DNA from: Cladocopium goreaui
Taxonomy: Eukaryota; Sar; Dinophyceae; Suessiales; Symbiodiniaceae
Assembly: GCA_947184155.2 (NCBI GenBank)
Contig: CAMXCT020000380.1
Span: forward strand, 436,001-500,000
Direction: 5' to 3'
Length of the DNA stretch: 64,000 bases
The first letter of the stretch is position 1. Each line of letters opens with the position of its first letter. A program made the translations under genes and the position numbers. Of the stretch, positions 14,522 to 45,958 are shown one piece after another. The notes below the pieces were generated by a model. It did no database searches, was not told the origin of the DNA, and was given only the letters and a program-made list of their open reading frames with translations.

Positions 14522-15034
14522 CTAGGCTTTGAAGCAACACCAACATCAGCAACACGCCAATGCAATTCCACGCACTTCCACGGCAATCGCTTAGAGATAC
14601 AAGATGATACAAGATGATACAAGTAGTTTGCGTATCCGGTTTGGCAACGCTTCTCTGATGAGGGTCCTCCTCAGCCTCACTATGACCAATTCACCAGAGC
14701 ACCACTCTGCAAATTTCCGTCCCTGATATACACGCGCAGCAAGTGTGCCGTAACGTGTCAGGTGGGTGTGCCAACTAAGCAAGTGTGCCGTAACGTGTCA
14801 GGTGGGTGTGCCAACTATTGTATTACGTTGGATCCCCGAGCCATTTTTTGCAAATCCGGAGTTCATCCTCTGAAAGCAGCCCGCAAAAACTGGAGGAAGC
14901 AAACCTTGCAAAGCAGCGGTGAATCCTAGCAGTGGTAAATCCTAAGGGACACAGTACAATAGGAATTGTTCTCTGGGAACAGTAAAGTACCATATGATCA
15001 TAGTGTATATATATATATACGTATATATATATAT
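14522..15034. other. Helicase intron flank with (AT)n at the element edge
   Basis: Contains a 30-bp duplicated block (AAGCAAGTGTGCCGTAACGT) at about 14,740 and 14,778, and an (AT)n run at 15,005-15,038 where the YR element is inserted. No gene is seen. Confidence 0.5.
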
Positions 15035-15190
15035 ATATGCTATGTTGCAAAGGGGGTCCTTGTTCGACCACGCCCAGCTGCTGTTTTTCCAACCTGCAGC
15101 CGTGCCTTCTGATCAAATTGGCTGTCCCAGCCAGTGAAAAAGGGACTCAGAAGGCTGCTTAGCAACTGACTTGAAGTCCTATCGTCGGAC
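15035..15190 (-). repeat. Split direct repeat B2 (element 3' terminus)
   Basis: 156 bp, identical by eye to B1 at 15,273-15,428. The outer edge borders an (AT)n microsatellite at about 15,005-15,034. Confidence 0.9.
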
Positions 15191-15208
15191 GAGGGGGTGG
15201 GATGGTGG

Positions 15209-15276
15209 GAGCCGAGAACTCACGGCGGGACCCCCACTTCACCCGCATATACTCCCCGTTACCGAGAAGGACATAT
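15209..15276 (-). repeat. Split direct repeat A2
   Basis: 68 bp, identical to A1 at 22,222-22,289. Its last four bases (ATAT) overlap the first four bases of B1, so B1-A2 forms the circle-junction sequence expected for recombinase-mediated integration. Confidence 0.9.
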
Positions 15277-15428
15277 GCTATGTTGCAAAGGGGGTCCTTG
15301 TTCGACCACGCCCAGCTGCTGTTTTTCCAACCTGCAGCCGTGCCTTCTGATCAAATTGGCTGTCCCAGCCAGTGAAAAAGGGACTCAGAAGGCTGCTTAG
15401 CAACTGACTTGAAGTCCTATCGTCGGAC
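15273..15428 (-). repeat. Split direct repeat B1
   Basis: 156 bp copy of B2. The recombinase ORF stop (15,417-15,419) lies inside it, so the last codons are repeat-encoded. Confidence 0.9.
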
Positions 15429-16406
15429 CTCCCTTCCACGCGTCCCCACCTGGCTCACTGAACGGAATTGAGCTGTGGCACGTTGAATCTTTGGGTGGGA
15501 GGCTGTGGGAAGCGTCAGGGTCATCAAGGCCTGAAGGCCTGTATCAAGATAGACCCGAGCTGTGGCCACATGTTGCCACCGCCCTTTTGTGACGAGCTGA
15601 TCCAAGCTGGATCCAGCCCGATAAGCGCTGGAAGCGCCTCCTCGTCTCAAGCTGTAAGGATAGAAGTTGCAGTGTTGTAGCTTGAGGGCATCCACTAAGG
15701 AGTGCCAAAGGGACATAAATTTTTGCCGCGAGGCCGGCCATAACAGATCCCCAGGCTGCTTGTTGTGAAGTAGGGCTCGGAAGGCTTGGAAGGTGATTTG
15801 CTCAGCCAACTCGACCCTTTCAAGTGGCAAAAAGAGGCGTTTACCGCCCTTCGAGGGAGGCAAGTATAGGACTCCCGATTTCGTTCCCAAAACCACATCC
15901 TGTGCCTTGATTTGTAGTAGCTCCCCTGTACGGAGAAACAGAGTGAACCCGACGACAAGCAGCCACCCGAGTTCAAACTGTTGCCAGCAGAAAGCTTGCC
16001 CAGCAAAAGCCATTAGCAGCTCTGGGGTTAAGGGAGTAGCCCGTTGTGGTACCTCCAATTGATTCCATACCTTCACCAGTTTCCATGACCACGTTAAATG
16101 GTGCTTGGTCTCAGGCCTGAAAAACTGAATGGCGGCTACCACATAGTTCGCGCTTGATTTCGGGGAGCCTTCCTCCCACAAATGCTCCACATATTCCGAA
16201 ACCATATCATCAAAAACTGGCAGCGGTGGTAAGGAGAAATTCCTTCCTAGGTTGTGAAACGCCCTGAATTCGGTGAAACAAAGTTGGTATCTTTCCTCTG
16301 TCTTTTGCCGCACCACCTGATGTCTTAATTTGCCGATCTGTTTTCTTTGTCGCTTTCTCTCCTCCTTTGTAAGTCCCGCGGCAATTGCCAATCGCTTAGG
16401 GCTCAT
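15417..16406 (-). CDS. Tyrosine recombinase of the YR retrotransposon
   Basis: A 329-codon ORF from ATG (MSPKRLAIAAGL). Tyrosine recombinases integrate the circular cDNA through a covalent tyrosine intermediate. Catalytic signatures seen: FLRTGELL (first Arg, near residue 159), YSLRRGGAS (second Arg, near 251), then GRWQHVATARVYLD with the His and nucleophilic Tyr near 280-285. The N-terminal part is basic (KEERKRQRK), as expected for a DNA-binding core domain. The ATG overlaps the end of the RNase H frame in ATGAGCCCTAA, so translation may be coupled by re-initiation. The track start further upstream is a GTG, so I chose the ATG. Confidence 0.85.
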   Translation of the reverse strand: MSPKRLAIAAGLTKEERKRQRKQIGKLRHQVVRQKTEERYQLCFTEFRAFHNLGRNFSLPPLPVFDDMVSEYVEHLWEEGSPKSSANYVVAAIQFFRPETKHHLTWSWKLVKVWNQLEVPQRATPLTPELLMAFAGQAFCWQQFELGWLLVVGFTLFLRTGELLQIKAQDVVLGTKSGVLYLPPSKGGKRLFLPLERVELAEQITFQAFRALLHNKQPGDLLWPASRQKFMSLWHSLVDALKLQHCNFYPYSLRRGGASSAYRAGSSLDQLVTKGRWQHVATARVYLDTGLQALMTLTLPTASHPKIQRATAQFRSVSQVGTRGREVRR

Positions 16407-16758
16407 ACTCTCTGCTGGGTCCGTCAGCCGGGTCCTTGGCACTTTCGACGTAGGCCAACAAAGGCCATACGCCTCCGGCCACCTGCAACGCGGCGAACTT
16501 CCGCAGGAGTCGATTCAGCGACTTCGAACTTGATCGGCCTTTGGTGGCCACAGCTAAGGCCACTTGGGAGTCTGTCAAATGCAGGGCTCGGCAATCTCCG
16601 AAGGCCTGACTTCGCAGCCTCCACTCGAAAGTGTGCACCAGGGCTCGCAACTCCAGCACATTGATGTGGTCTCCTTCTTGAAACGGGAAGGAGTGCGACC
16701 GGTGCCAAATCCACCGGTGCGGCTCGATTGACCCTCTGGGATAGGAGTCCGGCCGGTA
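16396..16758 (-). CDS. RNase H C-terminal half, separated by one in-frame TGA
   Basis: In the same frame as the RT-methyltransferase ORF, immediately after a TGA at 16,759-16,761, translation would continue through HINVLELRAL, LHLTDSQVALAV, NRLLRKFAAL and AYVESAKDPADGPSR. These are the typical C-terminal RNase H motifs of YR retrotransposons (E, D and final D positions). The frame stops 11 bases after the recombinase ATG. Either the TGA is a disabling substitution (for example CGA to TGA) or it is read through. The frame on both sides is otherwise intact. Confidence 0.75.
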   Translation of the reverse strand, partial: YRPDSYPRGSIEPHRWIWHRSHSFPFQEGDHINVLELRALVHTFEWRLRSQAFGDCRALHLTDSQVALAVATKGRSSSKSLNRLLRKFAALQVAGGVWPLLAYVESAKDPADGPSREYEP

Positions 16759-19700
16759 TCAAGCGCTGATGTCCAATCGGACGTCGGATCCCCTGAACTC
16801 TTGCCTACGGACGTAGGCTGATACCAACAGACTGCTCAGTCTCTTTTCATCATGCAATTCATCAGCCAGCAACTTTGCGCTCTGGCTCCTTTTCTCCATC
16901 TCCTCTGACTTCAGCGCTCCCGCCACGCTGACACTGTCATCATCTCTCGCCAGCAGGCTCGTCAGCTCACTGTCCTCCACCAGTGGGGGCTCAGTGGCTG
17001 GAACCTTTGTGGCCTGATTGGCCATGGAGAGCTGGCATATTTCCTCGGGGCCCTTCCTGCTCTTCAAGCCCATTGTGGCCAACACATGGTCCAACAAACA
17101 AGCCACGCTGTTGGTGTGAAACGAATTCCCCAGCGCCGAGCACTGCAAGTCTTGGGCCGCCTGTTTCTCCTCGGCACTCTCAGGTGGCTTTTTCAAAAGC
17201 CTCGCAGTGTGACCTGGCTGATAACCCATCAGCACCTCCCGTTCTTCCGCTGTCAAGGGGCGCAAGACACAGTCCCGGGTCAACACCATGTATTCATCCT
17301 TATAGGTGTAGGGAGGATACCGAAACCGGTCACTCTCCCATCGTGCCTGGCCAGCCGGCCCTGTGCCACTCAACCCAGCCGGGTCTGGTGGCGGCCTTGA
17401 CCGCGGGATGGCCCTGGTGAACGTGGGGAACCTGGCTTTGTCATTGCGCAGCCCTGCTTCCCACTCGCACCCATCTTCCAAAAACAGCGCCAACGGCTCC
17501 GGTGTGGCGCGGTACACCAACTGGGTGTAGCTTTGATGCTCAACGGTTTCCACCTCCTCTACGAACCCAGGTTCGGGCGACACCCAGAATAATCGCGGCC
17601 TCCTGGCGCGAGACAGGTACTGTGCGTCCACCATGTAGGGTTTCATTTTCAGTTCCTTTGACATGTCCCTGATGTCTCTTTCATCTGCGATAACGTTTTC
17701 CAAGAGCTTCAGTACCCACAGGTTTTTCTCTGCGGCCACTTCTTCAACTTCTCTGAAGATCCTACTGGCTTCGAAGAACAACTTCGATCTTTCATCTGCC
17801 AGGTGCTGTCGTTTGCTGGATAAGCGGGAGAGTCCCTGACAAGGGCTCCCTCCCCCTACCACAATTCCTGTAGGTTCCGGCACTTTTCGCAGCAGCTCAT
17901 TGATCTCCTTTTTGCCGAATTTCTCCACCAAGCTGTAGAAATTGGCCCCGGGATATGTACGCCGAAGGAGGCGTCTGCAGTCAGGATCTTTTTCTATGAT
18001 GCCCAGGTGTTTCCAATGAACTACCGCCTTTTCAAGGGAAGCAGTCAGTCCACCCAGGCCAGCAAACATGTCGATGATCAGGATGTTCTCAGATTCCCCG
18101 ATTCTTGTCGGGTCATCCTTTTTCGGGCCCTCCGGTAAGCTGCCACTCTCCAGTAGCTCCTTCACTTCTTCCTCTCCAGCCCTGGTCAGGCGGGACGCAT
18201 AGCAGACCCCCGCGCCAGTTTCGCAGGCGTCACTTGCCGTCACCACCGGGTCAACCTTGGCCTTCAGGTCACATTGAGTGAGGGGCAACAACACCTCCAA
18301 AACAAACATCTCACCTCGCATTTCCTCTGTGATGGGGCATACTGCTGGCCCGTGTGCAATGGCCCTGAACAGGGCCTCCAAGCAGGCAAAGAGGCACCGG
18401 CGGAACTGCAAGATGTGCACGGCCTTCCCTGCATACACTTGCAGGGCTTTCCGGGGCACTCGCCCCTGTTGTCTGATCCAGCTTCCCAGGGACACCAAGT
18501 CCAGACATCTTTTTGTGGTTGTTCGCAGGATTCCTCTCTTGCCGTCAATGAGAGCCCCCAGGCGCTCAGCACGTTTGCATCGCACCAGTGCTTTCTGGGT
18601 ATTGGTGGGAATCCCCCACCATTCATATGCTTTGCGCAACTGCTCCTGCTCCGCTGGTGGCTTTCCCTCCAGGTCTGCCGCTGCCTTCGCCGACACCCTC
18701 TCCAAGATCGTGGTGTCATCGAGGTAGATGGACCATCCTGCTTCCTCCTCCAGGCTTGGGAAAACTGCTGTCCGGGAAATCTCGGCCAGTCTGGACAAGC
18801 CTGCCGCGCCTCTCAAAGGAGAGCCCAGGGCCAATCGCCGGTGAGCGGCTTGCATTATCCCCACCGAGCTGTGCCAGCCCATCGGCAACACTGCTAAGCC
18901 AACGAAGCTCCACTCCTCTTCTGGCCGTCCTACAAGGCGACCTGGTATGGGCTTTGCCAGTGTCATGAAAGGGGCCCAAGCTGGCGGCATGGCAAACAGA
19001 TAGAAAGCGGACACCAAGTCCTCCCCACTCACTAACAACTCTTCACCTTCACCGACCACCACACGCTGGAAGCTGGAAGCTCCCGTAAGCGTCTGTGTGT
19101 CTCCTTCCAATTGGTGAAGCAGCCAGTTCGACGCCCTGAGGTCGACGATGAGCCGCAAAACAGCCTCTCCAGATGCCAGCTTCTTGTCGGCTTTGGGCAC
19201 CCCGAAAACTCCGTTCAGGACGTGTTCATTTTCCACCACCACAAATTGGTCGACGGGCTTGACCAAGCCTCGTTGATAAAGAGCTTCTGCCACGAGATCC
19301 CATTCCGAATCCTCACACATGACTCTGGGCTTCGGCATGGCTTCCGGCCAACTTTCCCTAATGAGCCTCTCTGGGTGTCTCAGGGTTTCAGCCATGTCGG
19401 GGGGCACCAACTCCAAGATATCCACCAACCCCCCATGTTCTGGGCTGGGCAATCCAGGCAGGATCTGCCGCAGCGTCACCCATTGCGCTTTTTCAACCAC
19501 CTCACCAGTGTAGGTGACATTCATCTCACCAATCTCATGCTCCCACTCATGGAGTGGTGTACGTGGGACACCTACTCTTTCCTTGTCGTCGAAAAATACC
19601 TTTACCATCTCCCATATTCTTCCAAGGGCCTTTTCTTGTGCTACCGTGGCTTGGGACCCGGGCCATGGAGGACGGCTCTTTTCACGATCGCCGTACAGGA

Positions 19701-21009
19701 AATTTAGCCCCAAGACCGCTAAAGCGTGCCACGTCTTCAGACCCTCTAGCCTGAGGGCCTTTTGAGCCTTGCTTCGAGTGTCTCCTCGCTCGCGCCACTG
19801 CCCGGCGCGGTCTTTATACTCCCCTGCTGTCAAAACCATCTTCAACTGCTCCACATCGTCGTGCCACAAAGGAAGGGGGAAGAGGTTCCGCACTCTTTCT
19901 TCCCTGTGCTCCGGGGCTTGCAGGTTCCATTCCATTAACCGCTGCAAGGGACTAGGGGAGTGCCAAATCTGGAGCGCCAAATGGGACGCCAGTTGAGCCG
20001 CTGACAGCCCGCTGTACTCATGCTCCCGCAGCCATGATCGCAATAGGCCACTCACCTGTTCTTCCAGCTCATTGCTCTCGGTGCTAGGCTGCGGGAAAGA
20101 CCCTGATGAGGGCTCTTTCTTCAACCGGACTTCCCGGCCCTCTTCCGTGGGTTCTTTGTCCAAGGCTTTCCTTTTCCTTTCTTCCCCTTCCAAGGGGGTT
20201 TGCCCTTTCCCTTGCCTTTCGGGGCGGTCGCTTTGGCGTCCCCTCCTTCTGCTGTCACGCTCCGGACGGGCGAGGTGTCTCTCCCTCGTTCCTCTGTCTT
20301 CTCTTTCTTCTCCGCTTCTGTCTTCCCTGCCTCCCCTGGAGGGGCTGGCAGGGTGGCGCGCAGGGCGCTCTTTCGAATCTCTCCTTCTTCGCGATCTTGC
20401 CTTGCTCTCAGGTCTACAAACTTCACCTTGGGATTCCTCTCGGAACCTCCCCTTGCGGGGGCGGGGAGATGGTGTTCCCCTGCGGCCCTGGCGGGGCTCC
20501 GACTGTGGCTCACGGGCCTCCCCTCCCAGGGGGCTGACCCGCTGCCGGCCTCCTATTTGCTGTTCTTTCCACTCTTGCTGATCGCTTCTTTGAGCTTCAG
20601 CTGCCTCACCTCGGCCTTGGTCGCCATCTCCCTTTCTTCCTCGCGAGACAGCATGGCTCCTGCTGCGAGGATCAGCTCGTAGTGGCGAGCTAGACTCCAG
20701 TGACCGTCTTGTATGGACACTTCCACCGCCTTGAACCTTTGCATCAAGACGTCGAGGCAATGCAGTGTTCTGCTGGCCAACAGTTCGTCTAACGCGGTTG
20801 CGAGCGTGACCAGCTCCCGATGGGCTCTGACTCCGATCTTCGCCGGCGGGGCGGCTGTGAGGACGATCTGGTTCAAGTAGGCGAGAACCTTCTGATTCTC
20901 CCAGGCGCTCGCCTCCAGCCCTCTTTCGGCTTGGCCCGCTAAATAGCGGCTCATTCTTTTCAGGGCCATCTCGGTCAACCGTCCGGGCTTCTTTTGGGAC
21001 AGGCGCCAC
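16759..21009 (-). CDS. Reverse transcriptase / RNase H ORF with inserted C5-cytosine DNA methyltransferase
   Basis: The open frame spans 1416 codons, but no ATG occurs in the first ~380, and the first ~150 codons overlap ORF1. Expression by -1 frameshift from ORF1 fits the frame relation. RT is at about residues 540-850: SGEDLVSAFYLF holds one Asp and IYLDDTT is the YxDD box near 759. The RNase H start (TASDACETGAGVCYAS) is near 925. A full C5 methyltransferase follows: motif I IDMFAGLGGLT (~980), motif IV GGGSPCQGLS with catalytic Cys (~1054), motif VI ENV (~1102), motif VIII QYLSRARRPRLFWVS, and a target-recognition/C-terminal part ending LGNSFHTNSVACLL. The ORF ends at a TGA, beyond which RNase H resumes. 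The methyltransferase would methylate cytosines, perhaps the element's own cDNA. Confidence 0.85.
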   Translation of the reverse strand: MAPVPKEARTVDRDGPEKNEPLFSGPSRKRAGGERLGESEGSRLLEPDRPHSRPAGEDRSQSPSGAGHARNRVRRTVGQQNTALPRRLDAKVQGGGSVHTRRSLESSSPLRADPRSRSHAVSRGRKGDGDQGRGEAAEAQRSDQQEWKEQQIGGRQRVSPLGGEAREPQSEPRQGRRGTPSPRPRKGRFREESQGEVCRPESKARSRRRRDSKERPARHPASPSRGGREDRSGEEREDRGTRERHLARPERDSRRRGRQSDRPERQGKGQTPLEGEERKRKALDKEPTEEGREVRLKKEPSSGSFPQPSTESNELEEQVSGLLRSWLREHEYSGLSAAQLASHLALQIWHSPSPLQRLMEWNLQAPEHREERVRNLFPLPLWHDDVEQLKMVLTAGEYKDRAGQWRERGDTRSKAQKALRLEGLKTWHALAVLGLNFLYGDREKSRPPWPGSQATVAQEKALGRIWEMVKVFFDDKERVGVPRTPLHEWEHEIGEMNVTYTGEVVEKAQWVTLRQILPGLPSPEHGGLVDILELVPPDMAETLRHPERLIRESWPEAMPKPRVMCEDSEWDLVAEALYQRGLVKPVDQFVVVENEHVLNGVFGVPKADKKLASGEAVLRLIVDLRASNWLLHQLEGDTQTLTGASSFQRVVVGEGEELLVSGEDLVSAFYLFAMPPAWAPFMTLAKPIPGRLVGRPEEEWSFVGLAVLPMGWHSSVGIMQAAHRRLALGSPLRGAAGLSRLAEISRTAVFPSLEEEAGWSIYLDDTTILERVSAKAAADLEGKPPAEQEQLRKAYEWWGIPTNTQKALVRCKRAERLGALIDGKRGILRTTTKRCLDLVSLGSWIRQQGRVPRKALQVYAGKAVHILQFRRCLFACLEALFRAIAHGPAVCPITEEMRGEMFVLEVLLPLTQCDLKAKVDPVVTASDACETGAGVCYASRLTRAGEEEVKELLESGSLPEGPKKDDPTRIGESENILIIDMFAGLGGLTASLEKAVVHWKHLGIIEKDPDCRRLLRRTYPGANFYSLVEKFGKKEINELLRKVPEPTGIVVGGGSPCQGLSRLSSKRQHLADERSKLFFEASRIFREVEEVAAEKNLWVLKLLENVIADERDIRDMSKELKMKPYMVDAQYLSRARRPRLFWVSPEPGFVEEVETVEHQSYTQLVYRATPEPLALFLEDGCEWEAGLRNDKARFPTFTRAIPRSRPPPDPAGLSGTGPAGQARWESDRFRYPPYTYKDEYMVLTRDCVLRPLTAEEREVLMGYQPGHTARLLKKPPESAEEKQAAQDLQCSALGNSFHTNSVACLLDHVLATMGLKSRKGPEEICQLSMANQATKVPATEPPLVEDSELTSLLARDDDSVSVAGALKSEEMEKRSQSAKLLADELHDEKRLSSLLVSAYVRRQEFRGSDVRLDISA

Positions 21010-21911
21010 AGGTCGCCTCCCCGGACTGAGGACGGCCGAAAAAGTGACCCTGAACTGGTCGCGCTTGACGACCTTGAGGAACTCCCCGAACTGGGGCTGT
21101 CCCTCCTTCTTCTTCCTTTGTCGCCCTTCCGCTTTTTCTTTTTCTTTCTCCTTTCCTTTTCATCAGCCTCCTTGTCTTGTTCTTCAGCTTTCTTCTTTTC
21201 CTGATCGGCAATCTTATCTGCCAAATGCCTGCGTCTCCCCCGGCTCCGGGATCTACGTCGATCCTTCTTTTCAGCCTCCCGTGGTCGGGGGGCATCTTCT
21301 TGGCTGCCTCGGGCTCCCCCATCCCCAAGTGGGGCTTGGGGTGCTGCCAGGGCTGCGTCCAGGCCCGTGGCACCTGGGTAAACTGGCGCCTTCGCCTTGG
21401 CGCGCTCTTCAATGGCCGCCCTTCCCAGGGCCACTCCTTGCGACTTGAGGTATCCTTGATCCACCATCACCTGAGGGGTGAGTAGCCTCCACCTGTCAAC
21501 ATGGATCAGAATCCTCTTGTCTCCTCGCGGCAGCCTTCTTCGGCACGATTTTGCGCTGCCCTGACACACGTGATAAACAGCGCCTTTTGAGAGCTCATTC
21601 TGGGCGTACCAATCATAGTAAGCATCTGAGCTCTGCCCGTGCTTGGCCCCAAACAGACCATCGCTGGTATCCTCCCACTGCTGAAGCTCCAGGACACCAC
21701 GTCCCTGATTGTTGCCATGGTCGTCATAGCAGTGGTATTCAATCAGCCTCCCCGTCTCAAACAGGTCCCGGGCTATCTCCAAGGCCTGCCTTCCCGCGTC
21801 GTTGGCGATGCACCAATTGCACTCGCTCAGAGGGCGATCAAAGCGTAGGCATGAGCCTACCTCTTCAACACTCAGGCCAAGCTGCCGCCCTATCTGCAGC
21901 AGCTCATCCAT
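20553..21911 (-). CDS. Gag-like ORF1 of the YR retrotransposon
   Basis: A 452-codon ORF from ATG (MDELLQIGRQLGLSVEEVGS). The first ~200 residues are globular, with Trp/Cys motifs (ECNWCIANDAGRQ). A long Arg/Lys/Glu/Ser-rich low-complexity stretch follows (KKDRRRSRSRGRRR, KKKKRKGDKGRRRRD, SSGSSSRSSS), then a C-terminal helical segment (residues ~330-450). Position and basic character suggest a nucleic-acid-binding gag protein; no zinc knuckle is seen. It overlaps the RT frame by 457 bp. The frame change needed is -1. The assignment as gag rests on position. Confidence 0.6.
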   Translation of the reverse strand: MDELLQIGRQLGLSVEEVGSCLRFDRPLSECNWCIANDAGRQALEIARDLFETGRLIEYHCYDDHGNNQGRGVLELQQWEDTSDGLFGAKHGQSSDAYYDWYAQNELSKGAVYHVCQGSAKSCRRRLPRGDKRILIHVDRWRLLTPQVMVDQGYLKSQGVALGRAAIEERAKAKAPVYPGATGLDAALAAPQAPLGDGGARGSQEDAPRPREAEKKDRRRSRSRGRRRHLADKIADQEKKKAEEQDKEADEKERRKKKKKRKGDKGRRRRDSPSSGSSSRSSSATSSGSLFRPSSVRGGDLWRLSQKKPGRLTEMALKRMSRYLAGQAERGLEASAWENQKVLAYLNQIVLTAAPPAKIGVRAHRELVTLATALDELLASRTLHCLDVLMQRFKAVEVSIQDGHWSLARHYELILAAGAMLSREEEREMATKAEVRQLKLKEAISKSGKNSK

Positions 21912-22221
21912 CTCCCACAAGGAGAGGACCAGGTGGCACCACCACCTGGGAGCACCCTCAGGGCGCTCCTCTGAGTGTTGGCCTCCCTCAGGGAGGAAGC
22001 TGACCCACCCTCTCTCTGACGGGCAGCCCTCTTCTAATTTTTCTGTCCTTTCTCTCTCCTCCTTCTTTAGAGGGAAGAGCACCTACCCGAGTTGGGCCTG
22101 ATGCTCTCCCCCCCTAGCCAGCCTTAACCCTCACGGGTCTAGGCTGCTTCTACGGCCACCTCTGGCCAAACACCAGGCACAACCCGAGAGGGGTCTGTGC
22201 CTGCCGTTCGACCCTTGCTGT

Positions 22222-22289
22222 GAGCCGAGAACTCACGGCGGGACCCCCACTTCACCCGCATATACTCCCCGTTACCGAGAAGGACATAT
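22222..22289 (-). repeat. Split direct repeat A1 (element 5' terminus)
   Basis: 68 bp copy of A2, 311 bp upstream of the ORF1 ATG. It ends at ATAT and continues into ATCATTATATATC host sequence. Confidence 0.9.
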
Positions 22290-23119: not shown

Positions 23120-23309
23120 GCTTCCACGTGCCACGTGACACATCGATCATGTCATTAAAGATATTAAAGTCATTTAAAGTCTTGTAATTGAAGTTGTCAT
23201 GTCTTATCATGTCTTATCTATAAAATTAGGTTGAAGATTGGTTGAAGTGCTTCTCTCTGGGCCCTTTCTAGTCCGTTACCAAAGAAGTCTTGTCGCAAGT
23301 TGGCTCAAC

Positions 23310-24312
23310 ATGTTAACATGTCGTTCAATGTTGCATTATTTTGCATTCATGTTGCATTCATTTTGCATTCATGTTGCATTCATGTTGCATTCATGTTGCA
23401 TTCACTTTGCATTCATGTTGCATTCATGTTGCATTCATTTTGCATTCATGTTGCATTCATGTTGCTTTCATTTTGCATTCATTTTGCATTCATTTTGCAT
23501 TCATTTTGCATTCATGTTGCATTCATTTTGCATTCATTTTGCATTCATTTTGCATTTATGTTGCATTCATTTTGCATTCATGTTGCATTCATGTTGCATT
23601 CATTTTGCATTCATTTTGCATTCATTTTGCATTCATGTTGCATTCATTTTGAATTCATGTTGCATTCATGTTGCATTCATTTTGCATTCATTTTGCATTC
23701 ATGTTGCATTCATGTTGCATTCATTTTGCATTATGTTGCATTCATTTTGCATTCATTTTGCATTCATTTTGCATTCATTTTGCATTCATTTTGCATTCAT
23801 TTTGCATTCATTTTGCATTCATTTTGCCTTCATTTTGCATTCATGTTGCCTTCATTTTGCATTCATGTTGCATTCATGTTGCATTCATTTTGCATTCATT
23901 TTGCATTCATGTTGCATTCATTTTGCATTCATGTTGCATTCATGTTGCTTTCATTTTGCATTCATTTTGCATTCATTTTGCATTCATGTTGCATTCATGT
24001 TGCATTCATTTTGCATTCATGTTGCATTCATTTTGCATTCATGTTGCATTCATTGTGCATTCATTTTGCATTCGTTTTGCATTCATTGTGCATTCATTTT
24101 GCATTCATGCTGCATTCATGCTGCATTCATTTTGCATTCATGTTGCATTCATGTTGCATTCATGTTGCATTCATTTTGCATTCATTTTGCATTCATGTTG
24201 CATTCATTTTGCATTCATGTTGCATTCATTTTGCCTTCATTTTGCATTCATGTTGCATTCATTTTGCATTCATTTCGCATTCATTTTGCATTCATGTTGC
24301 ATTCATGTTTCA
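23310..24312. repeat. 11-bp minisatellite TTTTGCATTCA / TGTTGCATTCA, ~90 units
   Basis: Uninterrupted 11-mers differ mainly at position 2 (T or G), with rare CTTTCA, GTGCA and CTGC variants. The 11-bp period makes every plus-strand frame open, giving ORFs of up to 414 codons with an 11-residue period, which I treat as artefacts. It sits in the probable helicase intron between exons 23,009-23,119 and 25,052-25,120. Confidence 0.95.
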
Positions 24313-25051
24313 TGTTTCTGTTCACTTTTGAGATTCGCAGCCCCGTCATTTTGCGTCCGGCAAGTGGCCTGGCCCCGTTGAAGCATAGTGTCAACTCGCT
24401 TGGACAACCATGCCTTGGAGCCCATCAGCATTTTAGAGCCAAGTTGGCGCAACGGGGCCCGAACATGTGTGAACACGTGTGAACATGTGTGAACGAGGTG
24501 ATGAATGATCTGTTGTATATGGCTAGCCATAATTAGCCATATCTGCAGAAATCTGCTGTTTCATGATGTGTTATGCTGTTTCATTGTTTCATCGTCCACT
24601 CTGATCTTAAATCCCCTAATCTCCCAACCAGCAAACCTAGAAATGTTCAGAGGAACTGCCAAGACTAAAAACCCCTGTGGTGCTGGATGGTTCGCTAGTG
24701 CAAGATAGGGGAAGGCACTTTGCAGCACTCATCTTCTGAAGAATAGTTGATGTCCAAAGATGTCTAAGGTCTATAAGTCTGTGGCTACTATGCTTCTTGG
24801 AATCACTGCAGTAGTGTTCAGTTGAAAGATGGTGTAAATTTGGAATGCTGGGCCCGGCAGGGCCCGCATCGTAGGGTACGACGGCAAAAGACTGTAAGAC
24901 GCGGGAACACAAACTTTAGACACATCTGTACACATCTGTCGATCTCTTGTAAGATCTGTTAACTTGTGTCAAGTATGGTGGCATGGAAGAGTGTTGTTGC
25001 TGTTGGAACGCTGTTTGGGCTTCACTGTCTCCGGATATGTGGTCCTCTCTC
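24313..25051. other. Probable helicase intron, no further gene
   Basis: Unique sequence. One further small exon is expected between 23,120 and 25,051 from the helicase spacing, but I could not place it. Confidence 0.4.
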
Positions 25052-43591: not shown

Positions 43592-45004
43592 ATGTGCGCA
43601 GTTTGTCCGAGAGAGAAGCAGTCCAGAACCGCCTATTGGAAAACCAAAAGTCAGATGAAAATACCAGTCCAACCAGTGGAAAAGGGGTATGAAGATCTCA
43701 CTGAAAACATTCATCACGCACCACCTCCAACAATTGAATCTGAAACTATTGTCATACCAAATCCATTACCATCGCCCATTCCCAATACTTCCATGCCTGA
43801 ACAGCCTGATTCCAAACCAAGTAACGTGCCTGGTGATAACGCCACCCCATCGCCTTCCAATGCCTATACACCAACCACTCCATTAAGTAATTCCCCAACT
43901 ATTAACTCTAATCCTGAAGAAGCAACTGACCCGAAAGATGTTCCAGCTCCAACTGATGATGATGACGAGTTTGTAGCTGAAGATCACTGGCTAGTCCAGA
44001 AGGATAAGCTCATTCGTGTACACCAGAAGCCAAGATATGAAGCATTTGACCAAGCACGTGCTGCAACTGCCCGGTAGACATACTCTGCGTAAGTGGCGAA
44101 AGGTTCTCAACTGGCAATGCAAACCAACAGGATCTCTGGTCACATCAAGATACCTGGAATAAAAATGACAACACGTGGCAAATCGCAACCTTGGACTGGA
44201 GTGACCATTTTCCATAATAGAGATTGAGAACGCAGGACTGTACTCCCCCGACGTAGATGTATTGCATGTGGAAAATAGCCAGGGGGGTGCTTTTGAAGTT
44301 TTCTTCGCCCAAGAGGACATGGATGCGACCATCCAGGAACACAACAATTTGCCAGTTTTCAGCCAAAAGACAGAGAGCTGAGGTGGAAGTCGAAGACCAG
44401 AGCCCGGAAGAACTAAAACAGTTTCAAGGAGCCAAGGACAAAGAACCAGATCAATGGTTAGCCGAAACAATCAAAAGGTTCTGAGAAGTCAAATTCCGGA
44501 GAAAAATATCCTTCGTGCCAGATGGGTGCTCATATGGAAAGATGTAGGTCCAATCGCAAGTGCCGCTGAGGGATGCACACGAAAAGCAAAAGCTAGACTT
44601 GTCATACTTGGGTATGAAGATCCCGACATCACACCGATTCCTAGAGACTCACCAACCTTGCAAAAGGAATCTCGATCACTGTTGTTACAACTTTGTGCCT
44701 CCTGAAAATGGCAAATCCAAAGCTTTGATATCAAGACTGCATTTCTCCGAGGGTCTAGAAGAGACAATCGGCAATTGGGCCTTGAACCTCCACGTGAACT
44801 TACGACGTAGTTAAAACCGAAAGAAAACGAAATTTGCGAACTTCTGAAATCTGCCTACGGTTTGGTAAATGCACCGTATTTATGGTATCAAGAACTTCGT
44901 GAGGCGCTGTGGCAACTCAATTTCACAATCAGTCCGCTGGATCCGTGTCTTTTTGTCTTGGCTGACAAAGATGGACATGTTCATGGATTCATGGAGCCAT
45001 TGGC
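43592..45004 (+). pseudogene. Linker and N-terminal RT remnant (older Copia)
   Basis: A Pro/Ser/Thr-rich linker (to about 44,077) is followed by RT pieces in changing frames (RARWVLIWKD near 44,515; APYLWYQELREALWQL near 44,870). At least four frame changes are needed. Confidence 0.65.
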
Positions 45005-45958
45005 ATGCACGTGGACGATGGACTATGTGGTGGCGCCAGCACTTTTATGAAAGTTCTGAACCAACTTGAGGCGCGTTTCCCTTTTGGATCCAAGAGAATC
45101 AGTGACTTCACTTTTACAGGCATACACGTTCAGCAAGATGAAGAATACAACATTCACCTTGATCAGATGTCCTATGTTCAAAACATAGATCCAACCAAGA
45201 TCGAAAGACATCGTAGAAAACAAGAACAAGAGAGTGTGAATGAAGGCGAACGTCAAGGTCTTAGAGGTCTCATTGGATCACTACAATATGCCGCGACAAA
45301 TACTCGTCCAGATACTGCTGCGCGTTTGAGCTTGCTTCAATCCAAGATCAACTGTGCAAAGATAGCAGATCTACTTGATGCGAACCGATTGCTGGGAGAT
45401 GCTAAGAAACATAGTGATTCTCGTATTACCATCTCAAGCATCCCAGAAGAACAAATTCGAATTGTAGCTTATTCCGATGCCTCCTTTGCCACTCGTGAAA
45501 AGCAACAAAGTCAAAAGGGGAGCCTGATCTTGGCTGCACATGAAGATGTCTTTCGCCAAAGGGTCGCAAATGCTAATCCATTGTCTTTGTCATCAAAGAA
45601 AATTGACCGCGTGGTGGCGAGCACATTGGCTTCCGAGACATTTGCCCTATCTCATACCGTAGATGTTTTGAACTGGATCCGCCTGGCCTGGGACTGGGTT
45701 CGAAATCCGTTGACACCTTGGCAGAGACCTGAAGAAGTTTGGAAATCAGCATATCCTGGCATAGCAGTTGTTGACTGCAAATCACTATACGATGTCATCA
45801 CCAAAAACACAACACCCCAATGTCAAGAACACCGCACTTTAATTGAAGCACTTGTCATCAAAAATACCCTTAAAACTGGAATTCACCCACATTGGGCTCA
45901 CAGCGCTGCACAATTAGCAGATGCACTGACAAAACATATGGATAGCTACAGACTGTGA
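45005..45958 (+). pseudogene. RT C-terminal part and RNase H (older Copia)
   Basis: One continuous 317-codon segment: MHVDDGLCGG is the YxDD-box region of RT. RGLIGSLQYAATNTRPDTA follows, then RNase H with VAYSDASFA, STLASETFALSH and VVDCKSLYDV. It ends HWAHSAAQLADALTKHMDS, the standard Copia C-terminus. It stays open although the upstream gene is broken. Confidence 0.85.

Follow-up and report, generated by a model that had tools for sequence, protein, structure and literature searches.

Within a 64,000-nucleotide stretch of Cladocopium goreaui DNA (contig CAMXCT020000380.1, positions 436,001 to 500,000; hereafter the window), we identified a tyrosine-recombinase (YR) retrotransposon of 7255 bp that carries a cytosine methyltransferase. 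The element lies on the minus strand, running 22289 -> 15035, with its parts in the order A1-gag-pol-YR-B1-A2-B2; an earlier note on this DNA had listed the same parts, and that list stands once the reading direction is corrected to the minus strand. Repeat A1 (22222..22289), which begins with the letters ATAT, forms the 5' end and is followed by a gag-like open reading frame (ORF; 20556..22082, or 22082-20553 from stop to stop) of 509 residues, with its first ATG at 21911 and a UAG at 20555-20553. The pol frame (16762..21159; 21159-16759 from stop to stop) lies at -1 relative to gag and is open from 21159, its overlap with gag being unconstrained. It encodes a reverse transcriptase (RT; 18253..19350, bounds mapped from 215-580 of the homologue P0001) with the YLDD motif of the earlier note at 18726-18715, strands 1 and 2 of an RNase H with the first catalytic Asp (SDACETGAG; 18187..18243), a Dnmt3-type C5-methyltransferase (17059..18099, mapped from P0001 632-978), an in-frame TGA (16759..16761) and the C-terminal piece of the RNase H (16396..16758; HINVLEL, LTDSQ and DPADGPSR motifs). 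The tyrosine recombinase ORF (15417..16406 from the first ATG; 16514-15417 from stop to stop), whose start overlaps the end of the pol frame, matches Pfam PF00589 just over the cut-off (27.3 bits against 27.1). Repeats B1 (15273..15428), A2 (15209..15276) and B2 (15035..15190) close the element, with an AT-repeat flank, the putative target (15005..15034), adjoining B2 directly. B1 and A2 have an ATAT in common (15276-15273), the putative joint of a circular intermediate.

B1 and B2 are 100% identical over 156 nt, and A1 and A2 are 97% identical over 74 nt with the first 68 nt identical, in agreement with the repeats described from the letters alone. These A1-ORFs-B1-A2-B2 split direct repeats, together with RT, RNase H and YR, match the arrangement of Ngaro elements. 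None of five inverted pairs links one end of the element to the other. The layout recurs in other copies, a point on which the earlier note had let its reading depend. The copy on contig C31 has a B pair of 156 nt (100%), and that on C1280 a B pair of 164 nt (99%) and an A pair of 70 nt (100%). A B pair was also found in 13 of 20 further 3' ends, each with an upstream A1 partner of A2 at 96.9-100% (13/13); of the remaining regions, four had none, two had simple repeats and one another tandem repeat. In the C31 copy (293943 on that contig; L043 and L036), the A1-like repeat upstream of gag stands about 2.9 kb farther from it than in the window copy, as though a sequence had been inserted between the two.

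The methyltransferase motifs I (DMFAGLGG), IV (GSPCQ), VI (ENV) and VIII (RPRLFW), all claimed in the earlier note, are located in pol, and the domain scores 41.5 bits against Pfam PF00145 (cut-off 22); the sole NCBIfam hit, to dcm, stayed under the cut-off. Our searches recovered 63 public protein homologues, with identities of up to 82% across the 1001 residues used as query; their named sources include Effrenium voratum and Skav gene models, which we take to be S. kawagutii. We aligned 51 of the 63, omitting 12 that were mostly truncated or rearranged, and built trees from 45 of the aligned rows. Across this alignment and in two AlphaFold models, the methyltransferase sits between RNase H strands 2 and 3, such that motifs and predicted folds together show a Dnmt3-like methyltransferase nested inside an RNase H. 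The AlphaFold models predict the Dnmt3-type fold that the earlier note had left to structure prediction, and the Dnmt3 affinity comes from PDB sequence hits and fold, an assignment made without a eukaryote-wide tree. The RNase H was recognised by fold comparison, with weak Foldseek E-values. Throughout the lineage examined, the methyltransferase is fixed inside the RNase H and inherited with the RT. A contiguous RNase H, judged by motif, was found in none of 141 homologues, a set with many fragments recovered by an RT search limited to ~245-780 residues; on this weak evidence we dropped a methyltransferase-free form as ancestor. In a distant lineage (P0059-P0063), YLDN replaces YLDD and the methyltransferase motifs are mostly GPPCQ/ESV, P0062 being an exception; here too the methyltransferase interrupts the RNase H at that position. 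Two copies of this lineage (C2972 and C2557) have B-A-B ends and no AT-run target.

Matches to P0001 in the genome number 52, 11 of which cover nearly the whole Pol. The nearest other copies are 72-74% identical in DNA, so there are no close copies among the matches found. Only the window copy has an internal stop among the 11 near-full-length Pol matches, to which the TGA at 16761-16759 is thus private, and several partial matches are broken too. We rejected the TGA as a programmed stop, since 10 of the 11 lack it. The description of this element as complete therefore does not hold: the TGA splits pol and cuts off the C-terminal part of RNase H, which continues in frame beyond the stop, leaving the window copy unable to produce a complete RNase H. 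It is an old, partly broken member of its kind. Comparison of nonsynonymous and synonymous differences (pN/pS) between the window and C31 copies gave 0.114/0.743 for RT, 0.141/0.752 for the methyltransferase, 0.066/0.706 for the C-terminal RNase H piece and 0.114/0.715 for the recombinase; these values come from one comparison, in which silent sites approach saturation. All four domains are under strong purifying selection in this pair, and conservation of the methyltransferase comes close to that of the RT.

The element fits the SymbioDIRS-Dnmt3 kind (de Mendoza et al. 2018, PMC5890265), as described in the main text of that paper: A-coding-B-A-B repeats, a Dnmt3-type methyltransferase in a Pol ORF with RT, a separate tyrosine recombinase ORF, no CpG depletion and dinoflagellate hosts. 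SymbioDIRS-Dnmt3 is described there in two architectures, with purifying selection on the methyltransferase. This bears out the statement in the earlier note that retrotransposons of dinoflagellates have captured cytosine methyltransferases, and because of this fit the methyltransferase-bearing element is not itself new. Ngaro elements share the A1-[ORFs]-B1A2B2 split direct repeats and GAG, RT, RNase H and tyrosine recombinase, and their types differ in integration preference, whereas a methyltransferase is not mentioned in the text of PMC8547959. DIRS1-like elements also combine gag, YR and a pol with methyltransferase, but they have inverted terminal repeats with internal complementary regions, in contrast to the direct repeats here, and mostly NTT termini (PMC3266345). 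Their methyltransferase is listed after RNase H (PMC3266345) and is of the Dam-like adenine type (PMC5890265).

At the junction of gag and pol, the gag stop is UAG in 13 of 14 copies (AAA-UAG in 11), with pol open in the -1 frame. A hairpin (20507..20546, minus strand) starts six bases 3' of this stop, and 93.6% of its cells pair across the 14 copies. Four pairs changed on both sides, a number reached in 3 of 500 shuffles, and the covariation score of 0.336 compares with 0.118 (standard deviation 0.024) in shuffles, none of which (0/500) reach it; with the partner shifted by 1-3 columns the score was at most 0.108, and RNAalifold independently recovers a seven-pair stem. The 14 copies include close relatives (C1675/C4702, C2112/C6065 and C2794/C447) and are not 14 independent events, and in four of them the outer three base pairs form one base further on and were scored as unpaired. 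Since folding energy over the 90 nt 3' of the gag stop spans z values from 0.75 to -3.04, the support for the hairpin is its covariation, not its energy. Rfam has no match in 20380-20640.

We hypothesize that Gag would be translated first and that the hairpin at its UAG would let part of the ribosomes continue in the -1 frame, producing Gag-Pol. The AAA-UAG stop may resemble the AAA-UAR shift sites of Euplotes. Alternatively, the hairpin might serve RNA packaging, priming or dimerisation, with pol translated from a separate trans-spliced or re-initiating mRNA. No pol-frame ATG precedes 19935 in the window, so that another start would then be needed; in addition, inspection of the gag stop by eye revealed no canonical slippery heptamer, and the pol stretch 3' of the hairpin is weakly constrained (ratio of nonsynonymous to synonymous rates, dN/dS, 0.49). 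These features lend the alternative some weight, but we regard it as rather unlikely given that the hairpin starts six bases after a UAG that 13 of 14 copies retain, precisely at the frame change. Two other ideas for this region were set aside. The pol frame across the gag overlap was rejected as a second coding frame, as substitutions between the window and C31 copies follow the gag frame (pN/pS 0.093/0.549 in the gag frame, 0.236/0.111 in the pol frame), and a K/G-rich frame after the gag stop (20552-20121) was dropped as a nucleocapsid extension, having no BLAST match among the 63 homologues.

Pol combines an RT with a downstream RNase H domain that houses a Dnmt3-type methyltransferase between its second and third strands, and might act on DNA as it is made. 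During copying by RT and removal of RNA by RNase H, the methyltransferase would methylate the CpGs of the new double-stranded complementary DNA (cDNA), and the methylated circle would thereby resemble the heavily CpG-methylated host DNA. The interpretation in the earlier note is partly supported overall. Two related domains methylate CpG in yeast (PMC5890265), and the catalytic Cys, Glu and Arg are invariant in all 51 aligned rows; methylation of the element's own cDNA is inferred. The methyltransferase could instead act mainly in trans, on host DNA or insertion-site chromatin, keeping the host hypermethylated. The authors of PMC5890265 raise effects on the host methylome and insertion site, and we see no element-specific CpG footprint (observed/expected CpG 0.65 for the element, against 0.69 across the window). 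However, the fixation of the domain inside RNase H and its inheritance with RT tie it to reverse transcription rather than to free diffusion, and we consider action chiefly in trans improbable. More doubtful still is a reading in which structure, nucleic-acid binding or RNA methylation accounts for the retention of the domain and DNA methylation is incidental. Its position within the RNase H fold means that loss could break the RNase H, which could alone explain purifying selection on the domain, but the invariant catalytic residues and the yeast activity of related domains argue against this reading.

Insertion appears to be directed to AT repeats. We compared 13 independent insertions of the YLDD lineage (those of the window, C31 and C1280 and ten others, with C433 merged with C1675 on account of their same flanks) and found an alternating AT run of at least 5 directly after the element in 12. 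The background frequency of such runs in the window is 1.27% (815 of 63,980 positions), which gives a binomial P of 2e-22. In these 12, the insertion point is at the 5' edge of the AT run. The C1675 and C433 contigs of G000 (L048, L049) show one insertion twice, differing in AT-tract length, either as a haplotig or through segmental duplication. The C2074 copy has an empty counterpart on contig C1232, where the flanks are contiguous (94.4% over 700 bp and 97.2% over 427 bp) and a (TA)n tract was present before insertion; the filled ends together account for the sequence of this empty site, with nothing duplicated or lost apart from one or two shared bases. In the window copy, the 3' flank gave only 27-30-bp repeat matches elsewhere and no empty site.

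The empty site and the insertion ends fit recombination of an AT core at the circle joint with an AT repeat. We propose that B1-A2 would be the joint of the circle, and that the tyrosine recombinase would use a short AT core to insert this circle where an AT repeat begins on its 5' side, without target duplication. This may be likened to the rule for DIRS1-like elements, in which a 3-bp junction recombines with identical genomic sequence and no target is duplicated (PMC3266345). That the AT runs are made at integration, or belong to the 3' end of the element, could account for 3' flanks being more regular AT runs than 5' flanks, but the (TA)n tract of the empty site refutes this for the C2074 copy and makes it very improbable overall.

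Taken as a whole, our best explanation is that the element is a decayed SymbioDIRS-Dnmt3 member working through the steps given above, to which we assign a probability of roughly 0.7. The narrower combination, in which RNase H and methyltransferase act as an interlocked pair on nascent cDNA, Gag-Pol depends on the stop and hairpin for its -1 shift, and the circle is aimed at AT repeats, is a tentative proposal that we consider less likely than not. Several observations weigh against the explanation. Elements without the methyltransferase expand in the same way (PMC5890265), so the domain is not needed for movement as such, and the element shows no CpG depletion. By sequence profile, the joined RNase H pieces gave no RNase H (one chance hit to UNC18); in an hhalign comparison with E. 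coli RNase HI, the Glu and one Asp lined up at a probability of 0.5%, and the best Foldseek E-value for the C-terminal piece was 0.028. At the joint, besides the missing heptamer and weak constraint noted above, one of the 14 copies has no stop at the gag end. As to the target, 5' flanks are less regular than 3' flanks (A+T 0.55-0.95 in the last 20 bases), the C4702 insertion has no AT run of five, the two YLDN-lineage insertions, outside the 12 of 13, have none, and the empty site is one case only.

Three features look new, namely the methyltransferase within RNase H, the landing at AT repeats and the folded RNA at the gag-pol joint. Split RNase H, AT-repeat target and hairpin were not found for these elements in the literature searched (including PMC5890265, PMC8547959, PMC3266345, PMC12344493 and PMC6338049, as text without figures or supplements and with few subscription journals). 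In particular, no mention of a split RNase H or AT target was found in the main text of PMC5890265, its figure 1e and supplement lying outside this statement. Should the methyltransferase belong to the RNase H fold, a single enzyme can link methylation of cDNA to reverse transcription, and the known oddity of methyltransferases in dinoflagellate retrotransposons becomes testable biochemistry. Moreover, the AT-repeat target together with the empty site indicates that a retrotransposon with a tyrosine recombinase uses a defined recombination core, and the covarying hairpin offers a starting point for studying the link between Gag and Pol.

Elsewhere in the window, a Ty1/copia-type element on the minus strand (37942-30288) has a gag-like ORF with a CCHC knuckle and a pol with RVT_2, and has relatives in Durusdinium and Symbiodinium natans. 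About 240 residues before its RT carry GSPPC..FS, LHEHP and HRH motifs, conserved in 61 aligned copia-type rows, and the stretch may be a divergent C5-methyltransferase. Weak PDB profile hits were to DNMT1 in 14 of 16 cases (best E 0.17); Pfam and NCBIfam gave no methyltransferase hit, and hhalign against the Dnmt3 domain matched motif IV only (probability 6.3%). Symbiodinium Copia elements are stated in PMC5890265 to lack any DNMT domain. An open frame on the plus strand (44966-45958) appears by eye to be the end of a second copia-type polyprotein, with no Pfam match over the cut-off. Near the element, a plus-strand satellite (23305-24331) of 11-bp units (ATGTTGCATTC and variants) contains long plus-strand open frames of Cys/His/Phe-rich repeats.

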